NCBI RefSeq assembly: GCF_017876575.1
Contig: NZ_JAGIOE010000001.1
Location: 4,444,443-4,508,442 of the forward strand
DNA: 64,000 bases
Reading direction: 5' to 3'
Source of the DNA: Paeniglutamicibacter psychrophenolicus
GTDB taxonomy: Bacteria; Actinomycetota; Actinomycetes; Actinomycetales; Micrococcaceae
Both the position numbers and the translations under genes were made by a program. The notes under the pieces are model-generated. The model made no database searches and was not told where the DNA came from. It saw only the letters and a program-made list of their open reading frames with translations. Shown piece after piece: positions 58,228 through 64,000 of this stretch. Each line of letters starts with the position of its first letter. The first letter of the stretch is position 1.

Positions 58228-58809
58228 TCAGGCCGGTACGGCGATGGCCAGCGGCAACGTCCCGCAACGGCCGACGGCGACCTCGCCAAATCCAAGGTCC
58301 TTGTCGACAACCGGCAGGCTGGCGGCGTCGGATCCCTGCCACCCACGAACCAGCAGCGCCCCGGCGGCCAGTTGCGGATCGGCCGAGACGATGACGCGGC
58401 CGCTGCCGCTGACCAGCGTGGCCCTCGGGTCGATGTCCTTGGCCCGATTCCATGGGGACGCTGAACCATTCGCGTCGCGAATACGTCTCGCCGGCCGATT
58501 CAATGGTGGGCATGAGCAGGCACTCCCTGGCCTGCCCCTGCCACCAGGCCATGTGCCACGGCGTACCGGCCAACGCGTCCCGGGCGGCAACGAACCCGGC
58601 ACCAACCAGCGGCAGCTCCCTACGATCCAGGAACTCGCCGACCAGAGGATGGATCGCCGCATCGAATTGCCGCGGACGGGGGCTCCGTCGTGGGATTCAA
58701 AGACCTCGCTCATCTTTCCGGCCCATTCGTGAAGGTCCTGGAGCAGGGATTCGAAGAAGTAGGAAACATCGTCACCGGTGCCGTTGCCGGTGGTTTTGCC
58801 TTGGTTCAT
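58228..58809 (-). pseudogene. Cache-domain sensor protein, frameshifted and internally deleted
   Basis: Three pieces of one protein are visible in two frames. The first frame gives MNQGKTTGNGTGDDVSYFFE through about residue 49. The other frame continues with DAAIHPLVGEFLDRRELPLV, MAWWQGQARECLL and REWFSVPMESGQGH. The first frame returns with ATLVSGSGRVIVSADPQLAA and LLVRGWQGSDAASLPVV. WF.VP...GQ.H followed by an A.LV...GRV..S.DP.L..G pattern is that of actinobacterial cache-domain proteins encoded beside GntR regulators. About 60 residues of the sensor core are missing between the second and third pieces, so the gene is dead. Confidence 0.7.
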
Positions 58810-59633
58810 GAGGTCCTCCGCACAGGGCGTTCGGGTTTGGTCTTCTCTGGCTTCGCGGCCGGGATCGCGGCTCGGGCCTGGTCGGCGATGAGCCAGACGA
58901 CGCCCTCCCGGACGTAGTCGCCTACCAGTTTTCGCGCCATGGCCGGATCCCTGGCGGAAATCGCATCAAGAATGTCACCGCAAAGCTGGATCATCCGGGC
59001 GTCAAACTCCGGGTCGGCGTGCGCCAGGGCCAACAACGAACCAATGTCCATGGGCAGCCTGACTGCTCACGCGTGATCCGCGCCGACTGGCTCAGCGGCC
59101 AGCTCAAGCAGGAAGCCACCCACCACTGTTCCGCGTGCGCCATGGCCCTCCATCCTGCCTTCCAGCACCTGACGCCGGATCACCACGTCGTGTTCATCGG
59201 CGGCATTCGCCGCAAGCTCGGCCTCCGTGGAGGCGATGGCCATGTAGTGGATCGCCAGGTCCCGCAATTCAACCCGGCTCATGGCCGCCAGCCGGTCTTG
59301 CAGGATGCTGGTCCGGTCGCCCCGGGGCAGCGTGATGAAAGTGCCGACCTCACGTCCTCGGGTGGTCTTCACCAGTCCCCGGGCGCGCAGGGAGACCAGC
59401 ACTTCGCGTGCTGTCATGGTGGCCACCCCGAGGGAGGCAGCCAGCTCGGACTCGCTGGGCAGCCGGTCCCCATCGAGCAGGCTGCCTGCGGCAATACCCG
59501 AAACCATGCGGTCCTCGACGCGCTTGGCACGACCCTCGTCTCCCAGCGACGCGAAGACGGAGGAGAGCCGGCGCTGGTACGCAGCAGGCCAGGTTCGGTC
59601 GCTACCAGGATCGGATTTGCCGAGGCCGGCCAC
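58806..59633 (-). pseudogene. GntR/FCD-family regulator with in-frame stop
   Basis: One frame of 276 codons interrupted by TGA at 59067-59069. The first part has the GntR winged helix (DRLPSESELAASLGVATMTA, VSLRARGLVKTTRGREVGTF) and most of a helical effector domain. The second part (MDIGSLLALAHADPEFDARM..., VREGVVWLIADQARAA) is the missing C-terminus in the same frame. The GTG start directly follows the stop of the molybdopterin oxidoreductase gene and the end overlaps the cache gene by 4 bp. Read-through or re-initiation at ATG 59051 could give two pieces, but loss of function is more likely. Confidence 0.75.
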
Positions 59634-61193
59634 TTAGCCAACCGAAAACTGGACGCGCTGCCATCCGCTGGATCCATTGGGTGCCGGGTTGGCCTGCTCG
59701 CTGGTTTGCATTTCACCCTGCCCGTCAAAGGCCCGGACGCTGACCACATGGTTTCCCGAGGATCCGCCGTCCCACACATAGCGCCACTGGCGCCAGGTGT
59801 CCACGGAGGCCTCGGCGCCCAGTTCCGCGTCCGTCCAGTCTCCGTCGTCGATTTGCACCTGGACCTTGGAAATGCCGCGGGTCTGCGCCCAGGCGGTTCC
59901 GCCCATGGCAACCTTTCCGGCCGGGACGCGGGCGAAGGACCGCGGCACGTCGACCCGCGAGGAAAGCTTGATGGGACCGTGGTCGGACCATCCACGCGTG
60001 GTCCAGTAGGCGACCTTGTCCGCGAATCGGGTGACCTCCAGGTCCACGACCCACTTGGTGGCCGAGACGTATCCATAGAGGCCGGGAACCACCATGCGGA
60101 CCGGGAACCCGTGCTCCAGCGGCAGCGGTTCCCCGTTCATCCCCACCGCCAGCAGTGCCATGCGGTCGTCGGTGAGCACCTCCAGCGGTGTCGAGGCGCT
60201 GAAGCCGTCAATCGAGGTCGACAGCACCATGTCCGCGCCGTCCCGGGGCACCGCCCGCTCCAGCAGCCTGCGCAACGGGTAACCCAGCCACTTGGCGTTG
60301 CCCACGAGCTGGCCGCCGACGGGGTTCGAAACGCAGGTCAGCGTCAGGTAGCTTTCCACCAGGTCCTGGGCCAGCAGTTCCTCGAAGCCCATGGTGAATT
60401 CCTTCTCCACCATCCCGTGCACCCGCAGCGACCAGTCGGCCGGGTTGATCCTCGGCACCGAAAGTGCGGTGTCGATCCGGTAGAAATCCTTGTTCGGCGT
60501 GATGAATTGCGGCATGCCCGCGACCTCGACCTGTGCGTCGGCCGGCGGCGCCTTGACCGGAACCTTGGCCACGGGCAGCCCGAGGGCGGACCGGGCCGAA
60601 TCCGCAATGTTCCTTGCCGTGGCCAGGGATTGCCCGACCCCGGCGGCCACGGCCGCGCCAATCAGGGACAGCGCGGTGCCCAGCAGGAAGTTCCGGCGCG
60701 AGGAGCCCGCGACCGGAACCGCCCCGGAAACCGGCGCCCGGTCCTTGGCAACAAGCGTGGTCAGCCAGCGCAGACAGGCCAGGCCCGCAACCGCGCCCAG
60801 GATGATGGGGGTCAGGTCGACAAGCCCGGTGGCGGGCCGGGACAGGACCGCACCTCCAATGGCCACGGCGAGCAGCACGATGCAGGCGGCGGCCGCGGCG
60901 AAACTGCGTTTGGCCAGGATCCCCAGGAGGACCGAGGCGACCGCCACGACAACGCCGATGGAGATGAACAACGCCAACTTGTCGTTGGTGCCGAAGACGG
61001 AGATGGCGAAGTCCTTGAGCCATGGCGGGGTCAGGTCGATGAACGTCGAGCCCATGGCCACCAGGGGAGCCGAGGCGGTGGCGAAGAAGGCCGACACCAA
61101 TTGGGCCACGGAAAAAAGCACCGCGGCCGAGGTGAAGCCCGCGAGCCCGTAGGCCCCAGTGCCCCGCGGCCTTGTCGCTGGAAACTTGGTCAT
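59634..61193 (-). CDS. Molybdopterin-dependent oxidoreductase (sulfite oxidase family), membrane-bound
   Basis: A 519-residue protein. The N-terminal third has five or six hydrophobic segments, the fifth or sixth beginning at RRNFLLGTALSLIGAAVAAG, which resembles a Tat-like signal. The rest is the sulfite-oxidase fold: FYRIDTALSVPRINPADWSLRVHG, the molybdenum Cys in YLTLTCVSNPVGG, GFPVRMVVPGLYGY and the C-terminal Mo-co dimerisation domain (WAQTRGISKVQVQIDDGDW). It probably oxidises a small substrate outside the membrane. A promoter CCAATCC-N15-CCGAAT stands upstream, the same as in front of the fasciclin gene, suggesting control by the adjacent SigK-like factor. Confidence 0.88.
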   Translation of the reverse strand: MTKFPATRPRGTGAYGLAGFTSAAVLFSVAQLVSAFFATASAPLVAMGSTFIDLTPPWLKDFAISVFGTNDKLALFISIGVVVAVASVLLGILAKRSFAAAAACIVLLAVAIGGAVLSRPATGLVDLTPIILGAVAGLACLRWLTTLVAKDRAPVSGAVPVAGSSRRNFLLGTALSLIGAAVAAGVGQSLATARNIADSARSALGLPVAKVPVKAPPADAQVEVAGMPQFITPNKDFYRIDTALSVPRINPADWSLRVHGMVEKEFTMGFEELLAQDLVESYLTLTCVSNPVGGQLVGNAKWLGYPLRRLLERAVPRDGADMVLSTSIDGFSASTPLEVLTDDRMALLAVGMNGEPLPLEHGFPVRMVVPGLYGYVSATKWVVDLEVTRFADKVAYWTTRGWSDHGPIKLSSRVDVPRSFARVPAGKVAMGGTAWAQTRGISKVQVQIDDGDWTDAELGAEASVDTWRQWRYVWDGGSSGNHVVSVRAFDGQGEMQTSEQANPAPNGSSGWQRVQFSVG

Positions 61194-61261
61194 GATTTCA
61201 CCCACCCATACGTTGTGATGCTTTGTCCCCTGCGTTCGAGGGGAACAGCCAACCACTACGT

Positions 61262-61289
61262 ATTCGGAACGCTACCACCGGCGGATTGG
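61262..61289 (-). promoter_or_regulatory. SigK-type promoter of the molybdopterin oxidoreductase gene
   Basis: On the minus strand: CCAATCC (complement of 61283-61289), 15-bp spacer, CCGAAT (complement of 61262-61267). The same two boxes with the same spacing precede the fasciclin gene. I recall CCATCC-N16/17-CCGAAT as the mycobacterial SigK consensus. Confidence 0.75.
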
Positions 61290-61317
61290 AAACAACCCAT
61301 CATTTTCCGGCGGCAGG

Positions 61318-62148
61318 TCAGAGTGCCTGGACCAGGATCGGGTCGGACGTCGGTGCCGGCGAGCCGGATGCCGGTTCCACCGTGATCCCGAAGTGCGTCA
61401 CGCCCTGCATCGAGCCGGAAACCATCACCATGCCATCGGCCTTGGCACCGTCGACCATTCCCGCGGAGACGGCTCCCGTGCCGGAGATCAGCCAAAGCTC
61501 ATACCCCTTGTCGCTGGGCAGCGCGGGCAAACCGGCGGTGGTCACCGCCATCATGCCCTCGGTGGCCGAGTAGGCCAGGGTGACCCTGGCCCCGTTGTCA
61601 AGTTCCTGGGTCTTGGACCTGACATCCGCGGCACTCAGGATGCGCGTCAGCTCGGCCTGCTTCGTGTTCAGCGCGGCCAGTTGGTCCTCGAGTTTTTGCT
61701 GCTGGGCGTTCTGGTTGGCCACCACTCCGCCCAAGGCGCCGGCGGCAACCAGCAGCACGCCGGCCGCCAGGGCAAACATCCGCCGGCTGCCCCTCGCCGG
61801 GGCGGGTGGCGAGATCCGCGGGAGTGGATCGGGGCCGGTTTCCGTCGCGGATTCCGGGGCGTGGTCCGTTGCGGCCTCGGCGGCCGCGTCCTGAGCCTGG
61901 TGCGGGGCGGCAGCGGGCGGCAGCTGCGGGGTGTTGCGGATGGCGGACATGATGTTCGCCTTGACCCGGGCCGGGGGTGCAACGGGTGCGGCGGAAAGCC
62001 CCAGAAGCGCGGCGGTTTCCTGCATTGCCTCCACTTCCTGGCGGACGTCCTGGGAGGCTTCGGCGTCCCGGAGCAGTTCCTCGCGTTCCGCATCATTCAG
62101 GGCGTTCAGGGCGAAGCTGCCGGTCAGCTCGTTCTTCTGCTTGTCCAT
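61318..62148 (-). CDS. rskA: Anti-sigma-K factor (RskA-like)
   Basis: A 276-residue membrane anti-sigma factor. The cytoplasmic N-terminal part (DKQKNELTGSFALNALNDAE..., LLGLSAAPVAPPARVKANIM) binds the sigma factor. A single hydrophobic segment (MFALAAGVLLVAAGALGGVV, about 123-143) leads to the RskA C-terminal domain (YSATEGMMAVTTAGLPALP, YELWLISGTGAVSAGMVDG, FGITVEPASGSPAPTSDPI). In this family regulated proteolysis releases the sigma factor. ATG 62148 overlaps the sigma stop by one base; GTG 62151 is an alternative. Confidence 0.9.
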   Translation of the reverse strand: MDKQKNELTGSFALNALNDAEREELLRDAEASQDVRQEVEAMQETAALLGLSAAPVAPPARVKANIMSAIRNTPQLPPAAAPHQAQDAAAEAATDHAPESATETGPDPLPRISPPAPARGSRRMFALAAGVLLVAAGALGGVVANQNAQQQKLEDQLAALNTKQAELTRILSAADVRSKTQELDNGARVTLAYSATEGMMAVTTAGLPALPSDKGYELWLISGTGAVSAGMVDGAKADGMVMVSGSMQGVTHFGITVEPASGSPAPTSDPILVQAL

Positions 62149-62750
62149 CACGCCACTCCCATCAGGTCTCGAAGTTTGTTCATTCCGTCGCGTATTCGTG
62201 TTTTCGCGGTTCCCACCGGGATCTTGAGCAGCTCGGCCACCTCAAGGTGGGTGTAGCCGCCAAAATATGCCAGTTGGATGGCATCGCGCTGATTCTCGCT
62301 GAGCTGCTCCAGGGCCCGGACCACGCGGCGGCCTTCATCGTGCGCGATCGCCGTTTCCTCAACGTCATCGTAGCTCGCCTGGAAGTCCTTGATGCCTTCG
62401 CGCAGGTCACGGTCCTTGCTGGCTTGGCTGGCCCGAACCCTGTCAACCGCCCGGCGGTGCGCCAGGGTCAGCAGCCAGGTGATTGCCTTGCCGCGGGCCG
62501 CGTCAAAGCGCGCCGCCTGCTGCCAGGCTTCGACAAACACCTCTTGGGCCACTTCCTCGCTTTGCGCCTGGTCCTTCAGGATCCGGCGAACCAGGCCGAA
62601 GACCTGGGGTGCGTGGCGGTCGTAGAGTTCCTCGAAGGCGTTCTCGTTGCCTGCCGCGATCCGGAGCATCAGGTCTTCGGTGGAGGGCGCGGCGGTTTGG
62701 TCCGTTCCCCCGGGTAGATGTGAGCTCATGCGATAAAGCGTCTCATGCAT
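62148..62750 (-). CDS. sigK: ECF sigma factor, SigK-like
   Basis: A 200-residue sigma factor with region 2 (FEELYDRHAPQVFGLVRRIL, QSEEVAQEVFVEAWQQA) and region 4 (LSENQRDAIQLAYFGGYTHLEVAELLKIPVGTAKTRIRDG). The sequence and the coupled RskA gene place it in the SigK group. In mycobacteria SigK drives the fasciclin antigens MPT70/MPT83; here a fasciclin lipoprotein gene lies immediately upstream and carries the matching promoter, as does the molybdopterin oxidoreductase gene downstream. The start may be 62750 or 62729 (MSSHLPGG); neither has a strong ribosome site. I see no such promoter before sigK itself. Confidence 0.9.
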   Translation of the reverse strand: MHETLYRMSSHLPGGTDQTAAPSTEDLMLRIAAGNENAFEELYDRHAPQVFGLVRRILKDQAQSEEVAQEVFVEAWQQAARFDAARGKAITWLLTLAHRRAVDRVRASQASKDRDLREGIKDFQASYDDVEETAIAHDEGRRVVRALEQLSENQRDAIQLAYFGGYTHLEVAELLKIPVGTAKTRIRDGMNKLRDLMGVA

Positions 62751-62835
62751 GCCATTTCCGATCCCTCATCCCTTCTGGTGCGGCGGGAAAGAATTCTTCT
62801 TTCCGTCGCGCCGAATCTCCCCGTCGAATCCGGAC

Positions 62836-62885
62836 GACCGCTGGGGGCTGCCGATGGACGCGTCCATCGGCAGCCCCCAGCGGTC
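62836..62885. terminator. 50-nt perfect palindrome between fasciclin gene and sigK
   Basis: Bases 62836-62860 are exactly inverted at 62861-62885 with no spacer, giving 25-bp arms (a loop of about four central bases in practice). It lies 32 bp beyond the fasciclin stop and 86 bp before sigK. No U-run follows. It probably ends or stabilises the abundant fasciclin mRNA and limits read-through into sigK. Confidence 0.8.
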
Positions 62886-62916
62886 TGTTGCCGTGCCCTT
62901 GTGCGGGGTGCGGTGG

Positions 62917-63606
62917 CTACTTCTTGGCCGGGGGCATCAGCACGGTGTCCACCAGGTAGACGGTGGCGTTGGCGGTCTGGACGCCTCCGCAGATCACCGA
63001 TGCGCCGTTGACCATGAGCTTGTCGCCGCTGCCGGTGACCTTGAGGTCCTGTCCTTCGACGGTGGTGTGGCTGCCGGCGATGTCGCTCGGGGCGATCTGG
63101 CCGGGAACCACGTGGTAGGTCAGGATGTTGCTGAGCATATCGGCGTCGGCGACCACTGCCTTGAGGTCCTTGTCCGGGATGGCGGCAAATGCCTCGTCAA
63201 CCGGGGCAAAGACGGTGAACTCGCCGCCGTTGAGGGTGTCGACCAGGTCGACCTTCGGGTTGAGCTTGCCTGACACCGCCGCGGTGAGGGTCTTGAGCAG
63301 CGGGTTGTTCGAGGCTGCAACGGCCACGGGATCCTTCGCCATTCCGGCAACCGACCCCTCTCCACTGGGCACGGCCTTCGCGTAGGCGGCGCAGCCGGAG
63401 CCCACGAGGTTGGCTGCCGGGTCCATGGCCGACTCGCTGGCCATCGTCGAGCTGCTGGGTGCGGGCGCTGCACTGGAGGATGCCGCCGAGGAGGACGGTG
63501 CCATCGACTCGCTGGTCCCGGTGCCTGCCGAGCAAGCGGTCAGTCCCACGGTGGCAATCGCGATCAGTCCAAGTGCTGCGGAAAACCTGCTGTTCATGCG
63601 CTTCAT
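62917..63606 (-). CDS. Fasciclin-domain lipoprotein (MPT70/MPT83-like)
   Basis: A 229-residue secreted lipoprotein. The signal peptide ends in VGLTACS (lipidated Cys about 25); a Ser/Ala-rich linker follows (about 27-60), then one FAS1 domain (about 90-229) with [53 protein letters not shown] and the closing [17 protein letters not shown]83 is the close mycobacterial counterpart. AAGGAGC precedes the ATG. A CCAATCC-N15-CCGAAT promoter lies about 80 bp upstream, so it is a likely SigK target. Confidence 0.93.
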
Positions 63607-63684
63607 GTCATGCTCCTTGCTTGGCGTCGGCCTCCTGGGCCTCCGCGCCGTCCCGACCGCTTTTGGTTCGGGCTGTCATGGAGC

Positions 63685-63712
63685 ATTCGGTGCCGCGCGG
63701 CAAACGGATTGG
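63685..63712 (-). promoter_or_regulatory. SigK-type promoter of the fasciclin gene
   Basis: On the minus strand: CCAATCC (complement of 63706-63712), 15-bp spacer, CCGAAT (complement of 63685-63690). Transcription would start near 63678, giving a leader of about 70 nt. Confidence 0.75.
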
Positions 63713-63777
63713 AATCATGCCAAGAAAGTTTTCCGCCAGCGAAAGGGATGCGATCCCGCTTGTCGGCGGACATGGAA

Positions 63778-63810
63778 GAAGCGGAGAAGATGTCTGTTCT
63801 TCTCCGCTTC
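63778..63810 (-). terminator. Terminator of the 45-residue protein gene
   Basis: GAAGCGGAGAAGA (63778-63790) is perfectly inverted at 63798-63810 around a 7-nt loop, 30 bp beyond the small gene's stop on the minus strand. No U-run follows. Confidence 0.75.
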
Positions 63811-63840
63811 CCTTGAAGATATCTCCAATCATCAAGTTGC

Positions 63841-63978
63841 TCAGTGTTTCTTGATGTGGGTTACCTGCTCGGTGTCTGACTCCGGTGCGTTCTTCGAGCG
63901 CTTCTCCGCGCGTCGCGCCTTGATCGACTTGCCTGCAGGCTTTTTGTGTTCGTGTCTATGTGGTGATTTGTCTGGCAT
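63841..63978 (-). CDS. 45-residue basic protein
   Basis: A short ORF reading MPDKSPHRHEHKKPAGKSIK, then ARRAEKRSKN... and ending QVTHIKKH. It is strongly basic (many Lys, Arg, His) with no hydrophobic segment. GAGAGG stands seven bases before the ATG and a 13-bp hairpin follows the stop, so it is a complete small transcription unit. From memory, similar short Lys/Arg/His proteins recur in Arthrobacter-type genomes without a known role; nucleic-acid or ribosome binding is a guess from charge. Confidence 0.7.
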   Translation of the reverse strand: MPDKSPHRHEHKKPAGKSIKARRAEKRSKNAPESDTEQVTHIKKH

Positions 63979-64000
63979 CAATTACCTCTCACCCTGGGGC

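Follow-up and report, generated by a model that had tools for sequence, protein, structure and literature searches.

A SigK-RskA locus of Paeniglutamicibacter psychrophenolicus with one promoter type before a fasciclin gene and a membrane molybdoenzyme gene

In Paeniglutamicibacter psychrophenolicus the genes for the extracytoplasmic function (ECF) sigma factor SigK and the membrane anti-sigma factor RskA lie between a gene for a fasciclin lipoprotein and one for a membrane molybdoenzyme, and these two flanking genes are preceded by the same SigK-type promoter box, CCAATCC-N15-CCGAAT. The locus is part of a 64,000-nucleotide stretch (contig NZ_JAGIOE010000001.1, positions 4,444,443 to 4,508,442), referred to here as the window, and its minus strand carries all four genes: the fasciclin gene comes first, followed by sigK, rskA and the molybdoenzyme gene. 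The boxes before the fasciclin gene (63685..63712) and before the molybdoenzyme gene (61262..61289) are exact matches on the minus strand, located 78 nt and 68 nt from the respective ATG codons, and their 15-nt spacers differ in sequence.

We consider it probable that these genes form a compact SigK-RskA regulon, with the two boxed effectors as a redox pair and with sigK-rskA fed by read-through. An envelope signal would relieve RskA, and freed SigK would then initiate at both copies of the promoter, that of the fasciclin gene and that of the molybdoenzyme gene. The sigK-rskA pair, without a box of its own, would most likely receive transcription that starts at the fasciclin promoter and continues past a conserved hairpin, which would cut the flow down and give weak positive autoregulation. 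On the outer side of the membrane, the fasciclin and the molybdoenzyme would most likely work jointly as a redox pair; other lineages keep the fasciclin and have DipZ, a membrane-bound thiol-redox protein, where the window has the molybdoenzyme. The sequences themselves show the boxes, their conservation and placement, the covariation in the hairpin and the pairing of the genes; that SigK reads the boxes at this locus, the read-through, the partnership and any substrate are what we infer.

Such a regulon is known from mycobacteria. SigK controls mpt83, dipZ and mpt70 (PMC9861118, PMC10540498), and in M. tuberculosis each of these genes has its own SigK-dependent promoter (PMC9861118). An earlier reading of the window from its letters (the sequence-only reading) had named fasciclin genes as the mycobacterial SigK targets. 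The mycobacterial system (the sigK locus and mpt83-dipZ-mpt70) and the window have in common a sigma factor of the SigK subfamily, RskA, fasciclin targets and an extracytoplasmic redox protein beside the fasciclin. They differ in that the window has the molybdoenzyme in the place of DipZ, and has its fasciclin gene directly upstream of sigK with a hairpin between the two.

The two boxes in the genome and the genus

The sequence-only reading had placed the same box before both genes flanking sigK-rskA and had proposed a genome scan for the bipartite motif. That scan finds the exact N15 pattern twice in the whole 4.9-Mb genome, both times at this locus, and a pair of exact boxes about 2.4 kb apart is kept in 15 of 15 genomes of the genus. 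The pair accounts for 30 of the 36 exact matches in those genomes, in which a reversed-pattern control gave none. Within the window there are 12 matches with up to three mismatches, compared with a shuffled mean of 21.66, and only the two exact ones stand out. The genome has two further N15 sites with one mismatch and 94 with two; the total of 98 at up to two mismatches compares with 18 for the pattern written backwards, an excess to which we give no weight because that control differs in composition.

Sixteen close loci, from Paeniglutamicibacter, Glutamicibacter and near kin and with the window included, have the same gene order. In the fasciclin box all 13 box columns are invariant among them, as against 3 of 15 spacer columns, with mean identities of 1.00 and 0.72, respectively. 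The molybdoenzyme box is exact in 13 of these loci, has one mismatch in one and two in two. With this support, the two window boxes appear to behave as one promoter class.

No regulon members beyond the fasciclin and the molybdoenzyme are claimed in this genome, and the candidates that were read were set aside. One of the one-mismatch sites lies inside a coding frame, and the other is on the opposite strand beyond a malic-enzyme-like gene (named by eye), with no clear gene of its own. Opening the spacer to N13-17 adds one exact match, with N17, inside a TetR-like frame (also named by eye). A looser pattern, CMATCC-N15-CCGAAY, has six matches, which are the two window boxes, three at 355741, 2248513 and 3153692, and a fourth that was read and lies antisense inside a coding frame of beta-propeller-like appearance.

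Six of the 36 exact matches in the genus lie outside the pair, and five of these were fetched. Two (L220 and L233) precede genes for DUF4383-type membrane proteins, one identified by Pfam and one by eye, and one (L225) precedes a CHRD-type gene, identified with our own profile (its first 220 residues have no Pfam match). The remaining two are in a monooxygenase-like frame and before no clear gene; the sixth site, in G162, has letters identical to those of the latter.

The box across the order

We assembled 124 sigK loci, comprising the window, 23 of 34 contig loci (the 11 weakest, L028-L038, being left out) and 100 loci from an order-level draw of 149 genomes, taken from the upper part of the match list with a few skipped. 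Fetched loci span approximately 4-5.5 kb on each side of sigK, and box positions rest on estimated start codons. Profiles made from the window proteins find a fasciclin in 58 of the 124 loci, a molybdoenzyme in 46 (48 matches), and rskA 117 times. Gene orders vary, and include molybdoenzyme-fasciclin-sigK-rskA, fasciclin-sigK-rskA-molybdoenzyme, sigK-rskA-molybdoenzyme-fasciclin and divergent forms.

Outside the 16 close loci, the half-sites CMATCC and CCGAAY upstream of these genes are mainly 15 nt apart, with few at other spacings. Pairs at spacing 15 are found ahead of 24 of 42 fasciclin genes, 11 of 31 genes for the molybdoenzyme and 34 of 108 copies of sigK; on the reverse strand, counted over all loci at spacing 15 or 16, the corresponding numbers are 2 of 58, 0 of 47 and 4 of 124. 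The molybdoenzyme family is present in 92 of the 149 genomes with 137 matches, some 106 of them away from the fetched sigK loci, and from these distant copies we sampled 40, mostly by rank, and six more. Among the 40 (at most one mismatch, spacing 14-16; their twin-arginine readings are unreliable), 13 are boxed, compared with one on the reverse strand. Boxes are present in 9 of the 14 copies with a fasciclin neighbour and in 4 of the 26 without, and these four are all from the window's own family, in which the parts of the system are scattered. In five such genomes with scattered parts, sigK is boxed in five, the fasciclin in five and the molybdoenzyme in four. None of the six further molybdoenzyme copies, also of the window's family, has a box, and among 15 fasciclins of other types, none of the six with a profile match that were scored is boxed, the other nine being unscored.

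Because the box is kept while spacers drift, the 15-nt spacing dominates, and the box also occurs far from sigK, the molybdoenzyme is a well-supported candidate member of the regulon, as the sequence-only reading had proposed. That reading had confined the membership to 'this lineage', and here it does not hold: many families of the order have the pairing, with box-led copies both near and far from sigK.

The window sigK (62148..62750, minus strand, 200 aa) scores 257.5 bits with NF007228, for which the cut-off is 226, and its best sequence match in the PDB is the SigK of 4nqw (E 2e-48). Among named sigK sequences its nearest is that of P. psychrophenolicus, with 98% identity in protein. The start of rskA (61318..62151, minus strand) overlaps the end of sigK, so that a membrane anti-sigma factor with an RskA_C domain (PF10099, E 4e-26; NF052375, 146.1 bits against a cut-off of 100) adjoins sigK. 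The genome has eight matches to the SigK model at E 0.001, with one above the cut-off among the matches listed, and another of its ECF sigma factors could in principle read the boxes in place of SigK. We regard this as very unlikely: the box tracks sigK-rskA across the order, it precedes sigK in 45 of 85 loci that lack an upstream fasciclin, as expected of an autoregulated ECF sigma factor, and it resembles the mycobacterial SigK promoter.

Transcription of sigK-rskA and the conserved hairpin

The sequence-only reading had described sigK as lacking the box and as placed behind a 50-nt palindrome, and both features are as it described them. The best box match in the gap upstream of sigK has mismatches at 3 of 12 positions, and a perfect inverted repeat of 50 nt (62836..62885, unstranded), a hairpin as RNA, lies between the fasciclin stop codon and sigK. 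It is the local form of a hairpin found 3' of the fasciclin stop in the 16 close loci. Compensatory changes affect 10 of its 13 consensus pairs among the 16 sequences, 93.9% of its cells are paired compared with 34-50% when one side is slid, and the covariation score and the percentage paired were each reached by 0 of 500 shuffles. In 23 more distant fasciclin-sigK gaps, 17 fold at a z of -2.4 or lower relative to plain letter shuffles (30 for each gap, the folded 100 nt entering sigK where the gap is short); the gaps of L065, L066, L067 and L076 have no folding excess.

The position of the box varies with what precedes sigK. At 39 loci with a fasciclin directly before sigK, the fasciclin is boxed (at most one mismatch) in 38 and sigK in one, and the same holds in 22 and one, respectively, of the 23 such loci outside the close set; at the 85 other loci sigK is itself boxed in 45, compared with 5 on the reverse strand. 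The box thus tends to head the transcript. In the window sigK would accordingly depend on the box indirectly, through read-through from the fasciclin promoter, and the palindrome hairpin fits expression of this kind.

A long stable hairpin after the fasciclin stop could also serve as the terminator of that gene, and the 85 nt between it and sigK are room enough for a promoter, such that sigK would be transcribed from its own start between hairpin and start codon with no read-through autoregulation. We think this rather improbable, as a sigma-70 consensus scan of 61150..64000, which covers one promoter type, reported no promoter, and 38 of the 39 loci with this arrangement have no SigK box (at most one mismatch) in the gap. 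We prefer the arrangement in which sigK is reached by read-through.

A second, small inverted repeat (62786..62804, minus strand), read from the sequence, lies directly before sigK, and hairpins are found at a similar place in several relatives. Separately, we considered whether the Arthrobacter-type sigK lies within the mycobacterial lipid operon; Pfam searches of ten frames from two loci of this kind did not support the idea, and it was dropped.

The membrane molybdoenzyme

The molybdoenzyme (59634..61193, minus strand, 519 aa; Oxidored_molyb, PF00174, E 8.2e-43) is modelled as five helices followed by an outer sulfite-oxidase fold with both domains (mean predicted local distance difference test, pLDDT, 80; predicted template modelling score, pTM, 0.61). 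Plain hydropathy gives four stretches, one of which is long enough for two helices. The twin-arginine motif is internal, directly before the fifth helix, and its Arg-Arg and the Mo-ligand Cys are invariant in 17 sequences. With five helices, a twin-arginine motif before the fifth and an outer molybdopterin domain, the enzyme is like the dual general secretory (Sec) and twin-arginine translocation (Tat) molybdoproteins of the Sco3746 type (PMC5449189); for the membrane part of Sco3746, the five helices and the need for Tat were shown by reporter fusions (PMC5449189). It differs in lacking the predicted heme-b helix histidines of Sco3746 (PMC5449189): no His precedes the motif in the window protein, and none is invariant there among the 17 aligned sequences, which leaves no place for the two b hemes predicted in Sco3746.

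The sequence-only reading had suggested a redox or sulfur-oxyanion role, and the two parts have fared differently. If the enzyme were a sulfite or sulfur-oxyanion dehydrogenase, the regulon would handle such compounds, and its best solved relatives agree with this: they are SorA and sulfite oxidases in sequence searches, and SorA sulfite dehydrogenase (Foldseek) and chicken sulfite oxidase (VIA) by structure, with both the Mo domain and the C-terminal domain matching the sulfite oxidase fold. However, its scores are far below the equivalog cut-offs for SorA (108.7 against 600 bits), SoxC (88.5 against 420), SorT (62.5 against 570) and MsrP (58 against 207). When it is aligned with SorA by profile, the enzyme retains the Mo-ligand Cys and Arg55, as Cys288 and Arg240 (in alignment numbering, one higher than in the 519-aa protein). 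SorA residues Tyr236 and Arg109 serve the sulfite site; in positions read from the alignment rather than from a superposition, Tyr236 is replaced by Trp403 in 16 of the 17 sequences, with Tyr in one, and Arg109 falls in a gap. These site residues speak against a plain sulfite dehydrogenase and, with the two not kept, the sulfur-oxyanion role is unsupported and in our judgement quite unlikely. A redox role in general stands as the best guess.

Compared with the sulfite oxidase family (SorA, SoxC and sulfite oxidase), the window enzyme has the common fold of the Mo and C-terminal domains, the Mo-ligand Cys and one Arg; it lacks the second Arg and the Tyr of the site and adds the membrane part. 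MsrP (YedY) has a Mo domain of the same fold, over which approximately 200 residues align; it differs from the window enzyme, which has the extra C-terminal domain and the score far below the MsrP cut-off given above.

The fasciclin and its redox neighbours

The fasciclin lipoprotein (62917..63606, minus strand, 229 aa; FAS1 domain, PF02469, E 3.2e-28) has a lipobox Cys, a linker rich in Ser and Met, and two domain cysteines. All 58 of the 58 relatives in the alignment have the lipobox Cys and both domain cysteines; among nine rows that represent fasciclins of other types, each domain cysteine is found in two. Met makes up on average 6.6% of the linker after the lipobox (53 of 67 rows, those with a recognised lipobox and including a few of other types), compared with 1.4-1.5% in the molybdoenzymes and SigKs.

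Among the 149 genomes, a molybdoenzyme gene (56) or a DipZ gene (13) is found no more than 6 kb from 69 of the 83 main-type fasciclin genes, compared with 0 of 15 other fasciclin genes, using bit-score bands between the types that were chosen after the list was seen. The 124 sigK loci include 46 with a molybdoenzyme, 20 with DipZ and none with both; the chance of zero overlap computes as 3e-5, or 7e-4 without the 16 close loci, and is given no weight as a probability because the loci are not independent. Of the 20 DipZ genes at these loci, 14 have a box (at most one mismatch). The fair count is 9 of 15, because five of the boxed genes had seeded the DipZ profile and were picked by their boxes; Pfam confirms DsbD_TM and thioredoxin-like domains in all five seeds. 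Ten genomes have both families, and the molybdoenzyme is unboxed in all six that were read (G008, G027, G044, G074, G116 and G130); in G065, which also has both, DipZ is unboxed. The window's own genome has no DipZ match at E 1e-60. The slot beside the fasciclin is thus filled by either of two membrane redox proteins, molybdoenzyme or DipZ.

DipZ-type proteins occur in 26 of the 149 genomes of the order, for example at sigK loci L133, L136 and L137, which seems at odds with a report that full-length dipZ is restricted among Actinobacteria to pathogens (PMC3078919).

Physical or functional partnership of the fasciclin with the redox enzyme is what this neighbourhood would suggest. Alternatively, the boxes could be SigK promoters while fasciclin and molybdoenzyme serve one envelope stress response separately from each other, which we consider possible but unlikely. 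In some relatives a box is also found before genes unrelated to either, for CHRD-domain, DUF1775 and DUF4383 proteins, and in the five genomes of the window's family with scattered parts the fasciclin and molybdoenzyme genes are far apart. Separate effectors do not sit well, however, with the contrast in molybdoenzyme adjacency between main-type and other fasciclins (56 of 83 against 0 of 15), with the nine box-led loci away from sigK at which the two genes are neighbours, or with an older survey, in which a single secreted polypeptide is noted to contain fasciclin as well as molybdopterin-dependent oxidoreductase domains (PMC1949818). In mycobacteria, DipZ is suspected of helping disulfide formation in MPT83 and MPT70 (PMC9861118). 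Returning to the redox pair, we tentatively suggest, as a conjecture we would not yet back over its negation, that SigK-run fasciclins (relatives of MPT70 and MPT83) serve an extracytoplasmic redox enzyme as its partners or substrates at the surface, that the regulon supplies either a heme-less Sec/Tat molybdoenzyme or DipZ, interchangeably, and that the invariant Cys pair and the Met-rich linker are the redox-active part.

Genes for secreted proteins of the CHRD type are boxed in L088, L097, L109, L119, L122 and L225 (five sigK loci and one contig of the genus), as found with a profile seeded with box-selected proteins, and a DUF1775 gene (L088:3351-4046) is boxed at one sigK locus.

Possible signals

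M. tuberculosis SigK has a redox-sensing Cys pair (PMC7509140), which the window SigK lacks. The window protein has no Cys at all, so that the cysteine switch of M. tuberculosis SigK (PMC7509140) cannot work here; the absence of the pair (133/183) removes the redox switch and not the family membership, and some SigK family members are reported without it (PMC7509140). Both cysteines are present in 0 of our 124 SigKs, a set mostly of one order and aligned by one method, of which we rely on the window protein only; this count is hard to reconcile with the published figures of 94% and 56% in two families (PMC7509140).

Light together with a photosensitiser is a lead for the signal. One hint is the response to light of mpt83- and mpt70-type fasciclin genes in M. 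kansasii, which were raised while dipZ was not (PMC9861118). A photooxidative-stress study places RpoE-ChrR of Rhodobacter capsulatus closer to SigK-RskA than to the R. sphaeroides pair, and lists a fasciclin gene among those raised in R. sphaeroides (PMC7074977).

Neighbouring features

A gene for a GntR-family regulator (59067..59633, minus strand) begins at the molybdoenzyme stop and may be expressed by read-through from the molybdoenzyme promoter; among the fetched loci, profile matches to this regulator are found in L005 and L006 only. The molybdoenzyme leader contains a small GC-rich inverted repeat (61225..61245), and the leaders of several relatives have similar repeats together with a common CACAACGTA-like stretch. 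Upstream of the fasciclin promoter is an inverted repeat (63778..63810), perhaps the terminator of a neighbouring gene. An Rfam scan of 58800..64000 gave no family at threshold, and the 598 records of a plasmid search were all below 60% identity.

Discussion

Several observations weigh against the explanation that we favour. For the boxes, the 20-nt flanks of the fasciclin box are fairly conserved too (mean identities 0.73 and 0.86), the two loci with two mismatches in the molybdoenzyme box are both from Glutamicibacter, and a spaced half-site pair precedes 6 of 117 rskA genes, which would not be expected to have one. Boxes are also missing where they might be looked for: from 27 of the 40 distant molybdoenzyme genes, from the molybdoenzyme in one of the five genomes with scattered parts, and from two (L186 and L191) of seven main-type fasciclins that are away from sigK and have neither neighbour. 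For the hairpin, 68 of 500 shuffles had at least as many pairs changed on both sides, and 224 of 500 at least as many further pair types; an intrinsic terminator scan (loop 3-8 plus T-run) did not report the palindrome, and we therefore call it an attenuating or 3'-end hairpin. For the redox pair, 14 of the 83 main-type fasciclin genes have neither a molybdoenzyme nor a DipZ neighbour, and whether a locus has DipZ or the molybdoenzyme depends largely on its taxonomic family, so that their mutual exclusion may reflect shared ancestry. In M. kansasii, light raised fasciclin genes of the mpt83 and mpt70 type and not dipZ (PMC9861118).

Our literature searches found no paper naming the molybdoenzyme as a SigK target, and part of what is described here may already appear in a 2008 J Bacteriol paper on how the SigK regulon evolved. 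What is new would be a SigK regulon of the same kind as that known from mycobacteria, with a different enzyme in the redox slot. Comparison of a soil genus with the mycobacteria suggests that SigK, RskA, the fasciclin and an extracytoplasmic redox partner are the constant parts and that the enzyme is replaceable. The locus offers a testable functional link and a naturally occurring regulon of two promoters with a probable read-through hairpin. It also brings out a class of membrane molybdoenzyme without heme ligands. The pairing of the fasciclin with either the molybdoenzyme or DipZ hints at what the SigK system of tuberculosis may be for.

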